DNA of 39,200 bases from the NCBI GenBank assembly GCA_949948785.1, contig CATLGX010000007.1, positions 1-39,200 on the forward strand. Direction: 5' to 3'. This stretch comes from an uncultured Christensenella sp. (GTDB taxonomy: Bacteria; Bacillota; Clostridia; Christensenellales; Pumilibacteraceae). Below are positions 15,172 to 21,462 of the stretch, piece by piece (position 1 is the first letter of the stretch; each line of letters opens with the position of its first letter). The notes under the pieces were generated by a model. It saw only the letters and a list, made by a program, of their open reading frames with translations, had not been told where the DNA came from and did no database searches. Both the position numbers and the translations under genes were made by a program.

Positions 15172-15270
15172 ATGTGCGTAAAAATATCGCCGTAAACGCC
15201 GCGCCTTTTCGGGCTTGACAGTGCCGCGTTTTTGCGATATAATATAACGACTACGTAAAAAGGAGCACGC

Positions 15271-16113
15271 ATGAAAAACACGAGGACGGCGGAAAAATTA
15301 AGGCTCGGCTGCGAAATAGCGCTGAGCGTCTTTACCGTTGCGCTCGCCGTCGTGTTTATCTCGATAATTGCGCAGATATATTTTTCGGCGGACTCCGACG
15401 GCGTTATGTACAGCCGCGAAATCGTTTGGAGCCGACTGCAATATGCGATAGCGCCCGTCGCGGTTTGGCTCGTGCTTGTCGTCGCATGCTTTGTTATTTC
15501 GGTGCTTTTCCCGAAAGCGTCGGCAAAGCGTCCGCCGTCCGCCGCGGAGCGCGTCGGGCGGTTGCGCAAACGCATTCCTAACAAGCGGCGCGATACGGCT
15601 GACGGAAAATACATAAACGCCGAGCACAAGCAATACGCGACGATAGAACTCGTGCGGATAATTGCGTACGCGACAGCGTCGGCGTTCGCTTTGGGCGTCG
15701 CCATATATACGATAGTTTACATAAGCGACAAATCCAACTTCACGTCGCCCAAAATCAACCCCGATATAATAAAAATGTTGCGCAACGTGCTTCCTCTGAT
15801 TGCCGTCGGTTTTTTGCTGTTTATCGGCGTGATAATCTACGAACGCGCAACGGCGAAAAGACAGCTCGGAAGAATAACAAATCTGCTCGTGGCATGTAAA
15901 GGTATGCCTATTTCGCAGTCTCCGCTCGCGGCGCGGCTGGATAAAATAAAAGCATTGCTTGTCAAAAACGAGAAAGTCTCGGTATGGTGCGTGCGCGCGG
16001 CGGTATTGGTTGTCGCCGTTGTGTTTATCGGCTTGGGCGTGTGGGACGGCGGCGCAAACGATGTTTTGGGCAAAGCCGTACTGCTTTGCACCGAGTGTAT
16101 AGGGTTGGGGTGA
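15271..16113 (+). CDS. Membrane protein with C-terminal CXXC tail (CD1871A-like)
   Basis: Several TM helices; C-terminus LGVWDGGANDVLGKAVLLCTECIGLG resembles small CD1871A-family CXXC proteins. Confidence 0.65.
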   Translation: MKNTRTAEKLRLGCEIALSVFTVALAVVFISIIAQIYFSADSDGVMYSREIVWSRLQYAIAPVAVWLVLVVACFVISVLFPKASAKRPPSAAERVGRLRKRIPNKRRDTADGKYINAEHKQYATIELVRIIAYATASAFALGVAIYTIVYISDKSNFTSPKINPDIIKMLRNVLPLIAVGFLLFIGVIIYERATAKRQLGRITNLLVACKGMPISQSPLAARLDKIKALLVKNEKVSVWCVRAAVLVVAVVFIGLGVWDGGANDVLGKAVLLCTECIGLG

Positions 16114-16116
16114 GAC

Positions 16117-18318
16117 ATGGAAGAAAATAAGAAAAAAGTCATGCCGCCCGAAAAAGAAAGCGAAAATATAAATCCGTCTATGCAAGCGGAAACGGGCGAA
16201 CGCGCGGCGGATTACGGCGCGCCCGAACAAGCGCCGACCGCACAAGTCCCGACCGCCGAACAGGACAATGCTCAGAATGAGGTATCGGCGGAGGACGCGC
16301 CAGCCGAAGCGGAAGAACGCGTCGGCGGTCAAACCAATCAAGCCTGTCCCGAGAGAAAAAAGGGGATACGCGCGTGGTGGGCGCGACATAAGCCGAGCAA
16401 GCGGCGGTTTATACCGATATATTCGTTCTTGCTGTACAATGCGTATGCGCGCGGTTTTATAAAGGGCGAGATTTTCACGGGAATGACCAAGTCCGCCTGC
16501 GTGCCTGGGCTTAACTGCTATTCGTGCCCGGGCGCGGTCGCGGCGTGTCCTTTGGGCGCATTGCAAAACGCTTTGACGGGTACGGGACACGGCAGCGCGT
16601 ATTACATGCTCGGAATACTGCTTTTGTATGGGCTGATTTTCGGACGCACGATATGCGGTTTTCTCTGCCCGATGGGACTCGGACAGGATTTATTGTATAA
16701 GATAAAAACGCCGAAACTGAAAAAGAGCAAAATTACGCGGGTGCTGTCCTATTTTAAATACGTGCTTCTAGTCGTGCTCGTAGTGGCGGTGCCGATTATT
16801 TATTCGATAGACAAAACGGCGGTGCCGGGATTTTGTAAATACGTGTGTCCCGCAGGAACGCTCGAAGGCGCGATAATGCTTTTGATACATCCGAGCAACG
16901 ATTCGCTGTACGGCATGCTCGGCGCATTGTTCAGCTGGAAGACAGTCGTTTTGGTGAGTGTATTCACGGCGAGCATATTCATTTACAGATTTTTCTGTCG
17001 GTTCTTGTGTCCGCTCGGCGCGATTTACGGATTATTCAACAGATTCGCATTGCTCGGGATAAAGGTCGACCGCAGTAAATGCACGAATTGCGGCAAGTGC
17101 GTCGACAAGTGCAAAATGGATATTAAGTCCGTCGGCGACCACGAATGTATAAATTGCGGCGAGTGCATAAGCGCGTGCCCGACAAAAGCAATCGGCTGGA
17201 AGGGAAGCAAAGTATTTCTCAAAAACGTCGACAGCTCGCTTGTCAAGCCCGTGCCGACAGACATCGACGCGTCTGCGGGAGTTCCGAGAGGAAAAGCAGA
17301 AGTTTCTGCCGACATTGCGGCGGTTGTTGACCGCAACGAAAATTCGCCGTGCGGCGCAGAAGTCGCCGCGACGGGCGCGATAAGCAAGCCGCGCAAGCCT
17401 CGCGGTCGTGCGTTTTGGCTGAAAGCGCTGTGCATCGCGCTTGCCGCAATCTTGTATGCGGGCGTTTTCACGTACGTCAACTTTTTCGCGGCGGCGGAAG
17501 ACGAGAGCGTCGAGTATTTGATTGCCGTCGATTCCGCAGACGGCGGAGCCGGACTTGTATCATTTACAATCGGCGGGAGCGATAAACCCGTGTCGACGCG
17601 CGGCGACGGCGACGGCACGAAAGATGCGCCGTACGAAGTTTCCGCGTTAAAAGGACGGTGGGACGTTCCCGTCGACGGCACGACGGCGGTTTACTTCAAG
17701 TTTACGGCGCACGACGCGGCGACATACACCGTCGACGGCGGCGAAAATCTGGAATTGAAAATTTACTATTTGACGGCGGGCAAGGCGTACGCTTTATACG
17801 ATTATCAAGTGGACGGAAACAAATTTACGCTGTCGCTTAAAGCGCCCGAAGGTTACGGAAACGGCGTGGGCGATATTTGCTACGATTTCACGCTTAAAGG
17901 TTATAACGGCGTTGACGACGTAACGCTGTCGGCTTATCGCGGTAAAGTAGTTGTCGTCAATTTCTGGGGAACATGGTGCGGACCTTGCGTAAAAGAACTT
18001 CCCGAGTTCGAACAAGTGCGAGCGCAATATGCGGACAGCGCGGTAGTCATTGCCGTGCACAGCGTATACATGTCGGAGAACGGCGCGGTGCAGCGCTTCC
18101 TCGACGATAAAAAATGGAATGAGTGGGGCATACTATTCGCGCAGGATACGGGTACCAAACAAAAGAGCGACGTGTTCGCTCTTCTCGGCGGCAAAACCAA
18201 CGCATATCCGCGCACGCTCGTTATCGACGCGGAGGGAGTAATCCGCGATGCGTTCGACGGCGAGGTGTCCGCACAGCAACTCTCCGCCGCAGTCGAAAAA
18301 GCGTCGGATAAAAACTAA
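16117..18318 (+). CDS. Membrane 4Fe-4S (NapH/polyferredoxin-like) protein fused to TlpA-like thioredoxin domain
   Basis: TICGFLCPMGLGQD, FFCRFLCPLGAIYG, two ferredoxin motifs (CTNCGKCVDKCKMD; CINCGECISACPTKAI), later TM, C-terminal VVVNFWGTWCGPCVKELPEFEQ. Confidence 0.88.
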   Translation: MEENKKKVMPPEKESENINPSMQAETGERAADYGAPEQAPTAQVPTAEQDNAQNEVSAEDAPAEAEERVGGQTNQACPERKKGIRAWWARHKPSKRRFIPIYSFLLYNAYARGFIKGEIFTGMTKSACVPGLNCYSCPGAVAACPLGALQNALTGTGHGSAYYMLGILLLYGLIFGRTICGFLCPMGLGQDLLYKIKTPKLKKSKITRVLSYFKYVLLVVLVVAVPIIYSIDKTAVPGFCKYVCPAGTLEGAIMLLIHPSNDSLYGMLGALFSWKTVVLVSVFTASIFIYRFFCRFLCPLGAIYGLFNRFALLGIKVDRSKCTNCGKCVDKCKMDIKSVGDHECINCGECISACPTKAIGWKGSKVFLKNVDSSLVKPVPTDIDASAGVPRGKAEVSADIAAVVDRNENSPCGAEVAATGAISKPRKPRGRAFWLKALCIALAAILYAGVFTYVNFFAAAEDESVEYLIAVDSADGGAGLVSFTIGGSDKPVSTRGDGDGTKDAPYEVSALKGRWDVPVDGTTAVYFKFTAHDAATYTVDGGENLELKIYYLTAGKAYALYDYQVDGNKFTLSLKAPEGYGNGVGDICYDFTLKGYNGVDDVTLSAYRGKVVVVNFWGTWCGPCVKELPEFEQVRAQYADSAVVIAVHSVYMSENGAVQRFLDDKKWNEWGILFAQDTGTKQKSDVFALLGGKTNAYPRTLVIDAEGVIRDAFDGEVSAQQLSAAVEKASDKN

Positions 18319-18332
18319 AATCTGTCTAAATG

Positions 18333-18385
18333 AAAAAGCAAGGCGGCGGTTACGGAAAAACTTCCCGTAACCGCCGTGCTTTTTG
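18333..18385 (+). terminator. Rho-independent terminator
   Basis: AAAAAGCA-agg-CGGCGGTTACGG...CCGTAACCGCCG-TGCTTTTT. Confidence 0.9.
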
Positions 18386-18414: not shown

Positions 18415-18477
18415 AGTACAAATCTTGCACGAAGAAGTGTGCGGATTTATTTTTATACCATTTTTATGGAGGATAGC

Positions 18478-21462
18478 ATGAAAAGACTGCAAAGAGCCGT
18501 AATCGCCATTATGTGCGTTGTATGTCTCGCGTTCGGCATGATTGCCTGCGGCGACGACAACAAGCCGAGCGGCGACAAGGCGACCTATACCGTTACCGTT
18601 AAAGCAGGCAGCGGCGTAACCGGCACGACTATGCGCGGCGTTACGGTCAAGCTCCTCAACACCGCCGACGGCACGGACGCCGCAGCGGCGAAAGAGCTTA
18701 CGCTCAACGCAGACAGAACGCAGGGCACTGCGAAATTCAGCCTTAAAAAGGGCAACTACACCGTGGATATAGGAAACATTCCAGGTCTGTACGTGAACGG
18801 TTCCGTTACTCTCACATCGACAGTAACCAAGACGACCGTTACTATTACAGACCAGGCTCCGCCCGCGCCCACCGTGGAATACAAGGTGCTGTTCAAACTT
18901 CCCGACGGTACGCCCGTTGCGAATACGAGCGTGCAGATATGCGGCGGCGCTAACGGACAGTGCTACCCCGCGACGACGGACGCAAACGGCTGGGCTACTT
19001 GGAATCAGCCCGCAGGCGACTACGAAGTTCACGTTCCCTCCGCAGGCTGGCCGACTGGCTACTATTTCGACGATAGTGCGTTCAAACTTACCGCTTCGGT
19101 AAACTCGCTCAACGTAGAATTCCGCGCGCTTGTAAGCCATACCGTAACGTTTAAGTACGCGACAAATTACGACCATTCTTATTACGGATATTATGATGCA
19201 GGAGACCCCGCAGTCAATGTTTCGTTCGATATTTATGCTCACAGCAATGCGTACGGCGGTCAAGCGGTCGGCGAGAAATTCGCAACCGTTACAACGGATG
19301 AAAACGGCGTAGCAACCTTTACCGCACCTGAAATCTGCCGGTTCGAAAACATAGTCGACCCCAACGGCTGTGTCCTCGGCGACGAAGGCTCGCGCGTTCT
19401 CGAATCTCAATACTCGCGCGAAGTCGTTCTGCACAAGCCCGGTATGTGCAATAGCGCACCCATAAAGTTCACTCTCGACAAAGCCGAAACGGTAAGCTAT
19501 ACCGCCGACGGCGCGCTTGTTTGGTTCGAGTTCCCCAATAAGAAATCGGGTGTTTACACGCTTTCTTCCGCGGGCACCGACGGCGTAGCGAAGACCGTAA
19601 AGATGTTCGATAAGTCGGGCAGCGTGGTTAATCTCGGTTACGACCTTATTGCGGTAGCAAAAGAAACTCCCGAAAAAGTCGACATCATATTCACCGAAGA
19701 GAACAACAACTTCACCGTCGAAATTCCTCTTTCCAACGCATATGCCAGCGAAAGCGGTTTGGGTAGCAATTTGTTCGCTATAGGCGTCGACAGCGCGGAC
19801 GAGGCGGGAACGTTTACCGTTACACTCACTCGTACGGGCGACTATGTCGAACCAGTATTGCCCGAAGAGGTGGATGTCGAGCCTAAGCAAATGTTTGCCA
19901 AAGAAGATTTGCCCGCCATACCCGACGAGAGCAAATTCGTATTCCTCGCGGACGGATATTATACTGACGACCAACTCGTAAAAGGCTCGGACGGCATCTA
20001 TCGCTTGAAAGCCAACGAACAAATTATTTATGCGTCGTTCGGCGATAAGTACTCGTCGCCTTCCGTATTCATAAACGGCGGCGGATTTAACCAAGCTGTA
20101 CTCGAGTCGGGCGGAATAGGCTTCATATTCTCCGACCAAAAAACTTACAACAACAACTATTTGGAATTTGTGAAAGCATACATAGCAGGCAGCAACGCCG
20201 ACGGCTTGCACCCGCTTAACGACGAAATCAAAGATTTCCTTGTGTTGTACTCCAAGGGGCAGGGAAAAGCCGACCTTACGTATCAATACGCGACAGGATA
20301 TTATGCTCCCAAATACACCGAAGTCGCTGTTACGGAAGGCGTAGGACAAATCCCCGAGTTCGGCGATTTCAAAGTAGAAGTTCCCGCAAACTCCACCGTC
20401 GCAATTGCCAACATGGTTCCTGTCAGACCGTTTGGATACCAAGAATCGGCAATAACGCTTATTACCGATAACGCGTCGATTAAACTCAGTGCGACGGAAG
20501 ACGGCGCGGCTGTTAAAAAAGTCGTAGTGGACGGCGGGGCGAAGTTCTATATCAAGAACGAGAGCGCGCAAGCCGTATCCGTAAAGTTTAATGCTTTCTA
20601 CGATACCGCTGACGAGAACATAACCGCCGTAGGCACGTATGTGCTCAAAGCGTTACCCGGCAACGACGCTGTAACTTACAAGTTCACGGTTCCCGAAGAC
20701 GGCGTTTATACGTTCGATTACGACGACGATACGTACGGATGGAGCATTGCAGACGAAGTTGAGGGTCTTAGTTATCAAACGGTTGCGCAGCTTAAGCGAG
20801 GCACGGAACTCAAAATATCCGTCGTTCCCAACGATAATTGGTGCGAGCCCATTGCAGAGATTACGATAGCCAAAGTCGACGTCGTTACAAGTCTTTCGGT
20901 CGGCGCGAACCAAGTCTATGTCAATGCGGCCGAAAGGACGAGTTTTGTGTTCACCGCTCCCGCGGCAGATACGTACTCGTTTGCTTGCGACAAGGGCGTA
21001 TTCATGAGCGCGGATAAAGACGGTAAACAGGAAATTTCCGAACCCGTCGAATTGGAAGCCGGCGCCGAATACACAGTTTGGCGTTATACGTATAATCCCG
21101 TTCTCTGCACGTTAACCGTTTCCGACAGCAATGCCCCGCCTCCTCCGTCGACTCTTACGGGCGGCGAGACGATTGAATTGGGTCAGACGTATATCGTATC
21201 GGCAAGCCCCGACGGAACGACTTATACGTTTACGGCAGATGAAGACGGAACGTATGTAGTATCCGTTCCGAAGAGCGACACCGCCGATGAACCCGTAGCC
21301 TATATCACTTTCGAAGCCGGAATGGCCGTTGAAACGGTGTCAGACATAGACGGAACCATAACGCTCAAGGCAGGAACCACATACACGGTTACATGCAGTC
21401 CGTATTCTTGGGACGTAACGGATACTATTACGTTTACGCTTACTATAACCAAACAAGCGTAA
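18478..21462 (+). CDS. Large predicted surface lipoprotein with repeated beta domains
   Basis: MKRLQRAVIAIMCVVCLAFGMIACGDDNK lipoprotein signal; prealbumin/SpaA-like Ig segments and repeated T-Y-x-FT-x(3)DGTY motifs. ATG at 18478 (SD ggagg) preferred over track start 18439. Confidence 0.8.
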   Translation: MKRLQRAVIAIMCVVCLAFGMIACGDDNKPSGDKATYTVTVKAGSGVTGTTMRGVTVKLLNTADGTDAAAAKELTLNADRTQGTAKFSLKKGNYTVDIGNIPGLYVNGSVTLTSTVTKTTVTITDQAPPAPTVEYKVLFKLPDGTPVANTSVQICGGANGQCYPATTDANGWATWNQPAGDYEVHVPSAGWPTGYYFDDSAFKLTASVNSLNVEFRALVSHTVTFKYATNYDHSYYGYYDAGDPAVNVSFDIYAHSNAYGGQAVGEKFATVTTDENGVATFTAPEICRFENIVDPNGCVLGDEGSRVLESQYSREVVLHKPGMCNSAPIKFTLDKAETVSYTADGALVWFEFPNKKSGVYTLSSAGTDGVAKTVKMFDKSGSVVNLGYDLIAVAKETPEKVDIIFTEENNNFTVEIPLSNAYASESGLGSNLFAIGVDSADEAGTFTVTLTRTGDYVEPVLPEEVDVEPKQMFAKEDLPAIPDESKFVFLADGYYTDDQLVKGSDGIYRLKANEQIIYASFGDKYSSPSVFINGGGFNQAVLESGGIGFIFSDQKTYNNNYLEFVKAYIAGSNADGLHPLNDEIKDFLVLYSKGQGKADLTYQYATGYYAPKYTEVAVTEGVGQIPEFGDFKVEVPANSTVAIANMVPVRPFGYQESAITLITDNASIKLSATEDGAAVKKVVVDGGAKFYIKNESAQAVSVKFNAFYDTADENITAVGTYVLKALPGNDAVTYKFTVPEDGVYTFDYDDDTYGWSIADEVEGLSYQTVAQLKRGTELKISVVPNDNWCEPIAEITIAKVDVVTSLSVGANQVYVNAAERTSFVFTAPAADTYSFACDKGVFMSADKDGKQEISEPVELEAGAEYTVWRYTYNPVLCTLTVSDSNAPPPPSTLTGGETIELGQTYIVSASPDGTTYTFTADEDGTYVVSVPKSDTADEPVAYITFEAGMAVETVSDIDGTITLKAGTTYTVTCSPYSWDVTDTITFTLTITKQA

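Follow-up and report, generated by a model that had tools for sequence, protein, structure and literature searches.

What does a membrane protein do that joins a NapH-type polyferredoxin to a thioredoxin in a single chain? This question is raised by a gene at positions 16117-18318 (+) of the window, i.e., the whole stretch of 39,200 nucleotides from an uncultured Christensenella sp. that was analyzed here. The earlier note had read the gene product as a single-polypeptide conduit, which leads electrons from cytoplasmic ferredoxin to an extracytoplasmic thiol reductase and thereby takes a role usually given to CcdA/DsbD plus TlpA.

Domain Architecture of the Fusion Protein

The open reading frame encodes 733 aa with no internal stops. 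A NapH-type polyferredoxin with four transmembrane (TM) helices and two [4Fe-4S] ferredoxin motifs is followed by a fifth TM helix, after which come a beta domain and a thioredoxin of the ResA/TlpA type that carries a WCGPC motif. These parts, all of which the earlier note had listed, were confirmed by translation, Pfam, AlphaFold2, and Foldseek. Pfam matches above the cut-off were obtained for Fer4_5 in two stretches (best at residues 164-197), for Fer4/Fer4_7 at the two ferredoxin motifs (C322-C354), and for Redoxin/AhpC-TSA at residues 584-718 (E about 1e-17); DsbD_TM (PF02683) gave no Pfam hit in the 733-aa protein. The AlphaFold2 model (mean pLDDT 81, pTM 0.75, 76-row alignment) contains four N-terminal membrane helices, a fifth helix at residues 431-457, strands at residues 465-573, and a thioredoxin fold at residues 584-731. 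The N-terminal extension (residues 1-82; 16117-16362, +) is disordered, with pLDDT values mostly below 50, and is conserved only in the closest relatives. A second AlphaFold model gave low confidence for the outer loop.

The polyferredoxin part carries several groups of cysteines. At the predicted outer face there is a four-cysteine motif (C128, C134, C137, C144; 16498-16548, +) as well as a CX3C motif (C240/C244; 16834-16848, +). Two CX3CP motifs, which are common to NapH and NosR, are formed by C180/C184, where TM2 meets the cytosol (16654-16671, +), and by C294/C298 (16996-17013, +), and the two ferredoxin motifs (C322, C325, C328, C332 and C344, C347, C350, C354; 17080-17178, +) are predicted from Pfam and topology to be cytosolic. 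All of these cysteines of the membrane and ferredoxin parts, including the six outer ones, are invariant across the 76-row alignment, which argues that the architecture has not arisen by chance.

The fifth TM helix (17407-17487, +) takes the chain to the outside according to AlphaFold2 and charge bias. It is followed by the beta domain (17509-17835, +), which was recognized by AlphaFold2, occurs in the closest relatives only, and resembles the repeats of the VQxC lipoproteins described below (phmmer 2.4e-5 to L112:3392-5971). The thioredoxin domain (17866-18309, +), with WCGPC at residues 620-624 (17974-17988, +), matches ResA, Etrx2, and TlpA in Foldseek, with ResA as the best hit (TMt 0.81-0.87). 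Both the Redoxin/AhpC-TSA fold with a WCxxC motif and the predicted extracytoplasmic location agree with a ResA/TlpA-type thioredoxin. For the membrane part no match was found among solved structures; the ferredoxin domains alone gave matches.

Distinction From NapH

With the NapH/MauN family (TIGR02163, E. coli NapH) the fusion protein shares the four TM helices, the two CX3CP motifs, and the two C-terminal ferredoxin motifs, and all 12 cysteines of these motifs align with E. coli NapH. However, E. coli NapH has none of the six outer cysteines (C128, C134, C137, C144, C240, and C244). They are likewise missing from four other NapH-like paralogs, except for one paralog with a single cysteine aligned at position 144. 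The curated NapH/MauN models were both missed, with scores of 82.4 bits (cut-off 213) and 64.4 bits (cut-off 234). The partners differ as well: NapH works with NapG/NapA, whereas the partners of the fusion protein are a CD1871A family protein and thioredoxin. The genes of a periplasmic nitrate reductase (napA, napG) do not accompany the fusion gene, whose operon consists of the two genes described here.

The Operon and Its CXXC Partner

The fusion gene comes second in an operon of two genes, and only three bases separate its start from the stop of the first gene (15271-16113, +). About 27 nt 5' of this first gene lies a sigma-70-type promoter match (TTGACA-17-TATAAT, 12/12 matches; 15215-15243, +), and a terminator-like 15-pair inverted repeat with a T-rich tail is located 3' of the operon (18344-18376, no strand assigned). 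The operon is flanked by a gpmI-like gene upstream and a lipoprotein gene downstream. The first gene encodes a membrane protein of 280 aa with five predicted TM helices, which scores 36.3 bits against NF040920 (CD1871A family CXXC motif-containing protein; cut-off 32) and thus belongs to this family. The CD1871A domain makes up the final 37 residues (16000-16110, +) and consists of a TM helix and the C-terminal sequence CTECIGLG (Cys273, Cys276), which is predicted to be extracytoplasmic. In the relatives, a tail of the form C.EC[IVML]G[LI]G stands at the very C-terminus in 84/90 cases. Members of this family are usually peptides of about 46 aa, whereas here the domain is the tail of a larger multi-TM protein. 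The other four helices gave no family above the cut-off. C. difficile papers on CD1871-numbered genes deal with a conjugative transposon and contain no word on function.

The two families are tightly coupled. In the order sample, the 57 of 200 genomes that have CD1871A are, with zero exceptions, also the ones that have this NapH subfamily, and the two genes overlap or lie at most 20 nt apart at 88/89 loci. A self-contained single-protein system was therefore rejected, since the CD1871A partner was present in every case in the order sample. For the earlier note this means that its list of parts stands but that the word "single-polypeptide" does not: the NapH part is always paired with a CD1871A CXXC protein in these 200 genomes, here as the separate 280-aa reading frame, and the note had covered neither this upstream partner nor the fact that the fusion recurs, nor the relatives in which the module is split into three genes.

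Split and Fused Relatives

In most Bacillota relatives the module consists of three genes, which code for a lipoprotein thioredoxin, a CD1871A peptide of about 46 aa, and a NapH-like protein, in the order thioredoxin - CD1871A - NapH. Examples are found in Eubacterium ruminantium (L049) and in Lachnospiraceae (L050, L053). At L069 and L070, NapH and thioredoxin are separate but adjacent and the CD1871A protein is long. Since the same parts are encoded separately in most Bacillota relatives, the fusion can be used as a Rosetta stone, and the joining of two subunits suggests that the three parts work as one machine. Thioredoxin is fused or nearby on the same strand at 75 of 91 loci.

The fusion itself is not unique. 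It recurs within one clade, at more than 40 loci, and at least 18 of the 57 carrier genomes of the order sample have the fused form. Three changes are enough to explain the fused or split state when it is mapped onto a tree built from the NapH part. A chance event or an assembly artefact was rejected because the fused loci come from independent assemblies and belong mostly to a single clade. Four loci in metagenome-assembled genomes labeled Bacilli, Bacillales, or Anaeroplasma (L042, L043, L044, L048) have the fused form and fall inside the fused clade, which suggests either transfer or mislabeled bins. Furthermore, two thioredoxins were observed around one CD1871A gene at L041:4701-7649, L045:489-3434, L071, and L072; in L041, L045, and L072 one of the two is fused to NapH.

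A distant branch retains the four-cysteine group with its first cysteine shifted, and C240 can be replaced by serine there. Its members L127-L132 and L134 adjoin a divergent CXXC peptide with the tail LCLSCIGIQ or similar and are mostly without an adjacent thioredoxin, and their neighboring genes gave no common functional hint. As this branch keeps the NapH-type protein and the CXXC peptide but mostly has no thioredoxin next to them, the core of the module is formed by these two proteins, and thioredoxin is a usual, but not universal, neighbor.

Topology and Proposed Electron Path

By the positive-inside rule, residues 184-212 and residues 295-432 with the ferredoxin motifs are inside and residues 452-733 are outside; the C-terminus of the 280-aa partner is likewise predicted to be outside from its charge bias. 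All split thioredoxin partners (36/36) carry a lipobox, a signal, or a TM anchor and are predicted to be exported. Besides the NapH-thioredoxin fusion there is a NapH-CD1871A fusion (L052), and natural fusions in both ways fit a location of CXXC and WCGPC on the outside. Judged from these sequence features, the thiols are all predicted to lie outside, whereas the ferredoxin clusters are predicted to lie inside. The incompatible sides that the earlier note had named as an argument against its reading were not found, since the charge bias predicts a cytosolic position for the ferredoxin clusters and an outer one for WCGPC.

On this basis, the operon probably exports electrons for the reduction of disulfides at the cell surface and would thus be an alternative to CcdA/DsbD. 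We consider it reasonably likely that the two genes constitute a transmembrane thiol-reducing conduit, in which iron-sulfur clusters take the place of the CcdA/DsbD thiol relay. Pyruvate:ferredoxin oxidoreductase, which is encoded in the window genome, would reduce ferredoxin, which in turn would be the donor for the two [4Fe-4S] clusters on the cytosolic side. From there, electrons may cross the membrane by way of the two CX3CP motifs to a putative outer-face cluster on C128, C134, C137, and C144, beside which C244 and usually also C240 are conserved. This outer site would then reduce, by a putative disulfide chemistry, the C-terminal CXXC of the CD1871A protein encoded upstream, which is the constant partner of the NapH part. 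Two electrons would next move from the CXXC to the WCGPC of the thioredoxin, which is predicted to be held in position by the fifth TM helix. Finally, the thioredoxin may reduce disulfides of surface proteins.

It might also be that the electrons come from a different donor, namely that the NapH-type membrane part oxidizes quinol, in line with proposals for NapH, NosR, and PceC, and hands the electrons to the thioredoxin, so that ferredoxin would not be the donor. The closest members are found in Clostridia that probably ferment without quinones, and such a route leaves no clear job for the two cytosolic ferredoxin clusters; in addition, the absence of the outer cysteines from NapH indicates a different chemistry. 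Thus, we regard a quinol route as unlikely, even though NapH, NosR, and RdhC, which have the same membrane module with four TM helices and two CX3CP motifs, have been proposed to oxidize quinol (PMC5928378; PMC8238504).

An equally doubtful explanation is that the thioredoxin serves maturation, in that it maintains the outer cysteines of both the NapH part and CD1871A in the reduced state for cluster loading, whereby the real acceptor of the electrons would be another surface protein. This would be in line with what is known of ResA/TlpA-type proteins as assembly reductants for cofactor insertion and with the distant members that mostly have no adjacent thioredoxin. However, the thioredoxin would still need an electron source, with no CcdA/DsbD detected in the genome, and the direct covalent tether better suits an electron path. 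Very improbable, finally, is a flow in the reverse direction, whereby surface dithiols would be oxidized and electrons would run inward as a route for oxidative folding. Neither DsbA nor VKOR was found in the genome, so that an oxidase is otherwise missing, but the transfer from thiols to a low-potential ferredoxin is uphill and WCGPC motifs of the ResA/TlpA type are normally reducing.

Candidate Substrates

The gene downstream of the operon (18439-21462, +; likelier ATG start at 18478) encodes an Ig-like lipoprotein of 1007 aa, which is a candidate substrate or partner of the module, with membership that we infer. It contains a VQIC-x6-C cysteine pair (C168/C175; 18940-18963). Related lipoproteins adjoin the module in several relatives and have in common a VQxC-x(4-12)-C motif within a carboxypeptidase-regulatory-like domain. 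The genes of VQxC lipoproteins are often unlinked and far from the module on the chromosome. The presence of the VQxC domain agrees with the presence of the module in 39/41 relatives (15 with both, 24 with neither; Fisher 4e-9). Due to the adjacency to the module, the co-inheritance, and the likeness to the beta domain of the fusion protein, the Ig-like VQxC lipoproteins are our best guess for the substrates of the thioredoxin. In some relatives, the genes next to VQxC genes code for exported proteins that are 950-1200 aa long and have a WxxxCxxC thioredoxin domain of their own; such proteins, with a recurring WLxxCxYYxxxG-like motif, were seen at L112:6009-9251, L113:6135-9344, L115:1929-4805, and L046:7294-10881.

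Occurrence of CcdA/DsbD in Carrier Genomes

In the window genome neither DsbD_TM (CcdA/DsbD) nor VKOR nor DsbA was detected, and since this genome is 84% complete, these absences are provisional. Among 399 genomes sampled from the phylum, 9/39 strong carriers of the module had DsbD_TM above the cut-off, vs 258/360 other genomes (Fisher 4e-9, with kinship between genomes ignored). In the order sample, however, CcdA was found in 11/57 carriers and 26/143 others and is thus no rarer in carriers, while none of the 18 fused carriers had DsbD_TM above the cut-off. The CcdA/DsbD-like role that the earlier note had suggested is therefore backed by the lack of detected CcdA/DsbD in the genome and by their rarity in carriers at phylum scale, but not at the scale of the order. 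Because CcdA is no rarer in the order carriers, a replacement of CcdA by the module is not supported as a general rule. Genomes with the module often lack CcdA, which is a correlation.

Relation to Described Systems and Implications

The predicted outcome is the same as for CcdA/DsbD with TlpA/ResA, i.e., a cytosolic reductant drives extracytoplasmic thiol reduction via a ResA/TlpA-type thioredoxin, whereas the membrane part is a DsbD_TM thiol relay in the one case and an unrelated Fe-S polyferredoxin in the other. The flavinylated systems of PceC/RdhC, NosR, and their relatives also combine a NapH module with a linked or fused redox domain outside the cytosol, but this domain is FMN-binding there and a thioredoxin with a CXXC tail here (PMC8238504; PMC5928378). 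The closest description is found in a 2025 preprint, which reports a "novel operon" of "4Fe-4S ferredoxin + TlpA family reductase + CxxC protein" from gut Clostridia as a predictor of immunotherapy side effects and suggests extracellular targets for reduction (PMC12637426). The same three parts are encoded together in both cases; in the passages of the preprint considered here they are three separate proteins, with no fusion and no tested mechanism, whereas here NapH is joined to thioredoxin in a single chain and CD1871A forms the end of a larger membrane protein. The fusion is a new variant of a split operon that has already been noted. In the open-access literature, we found no report on the NapH-thioredoxin fusion, on the six outer cysteines, or on the biochemistry of the module.

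Whether the module represents a third class, in chemical terms, of pathways that reduce thiols across the membrane appears evenly balanced to us. In such a pathway, an iron-sulfur conduit made of a polyferredoxin with an outer-face cluster and a C-terminal CXXC peptide would couple cytosolic ferredoxin directly to surface dithiols in strict anaerobes often without CcdA/DsbD, and dedicated Ig-like lipoproteins would be its substrates in the lineage of the window. The prediction is that an Fe-S site at the outer face reduces a CXXC peptide, and this chemistry, if shown, would be a new class. The module has a wide distribution in Bacillota and occurs in common gut species that PMC12637426 names, and the path proposed here is a candidate mechanism for the operon that is associated there with immunotherapy side effects. 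More generally, the finding bears on the way in which extracytoplasmic cysteines are kept reduced in strict anaerobes that have no CcdA, DsbD, or Dsb oxidation systems.
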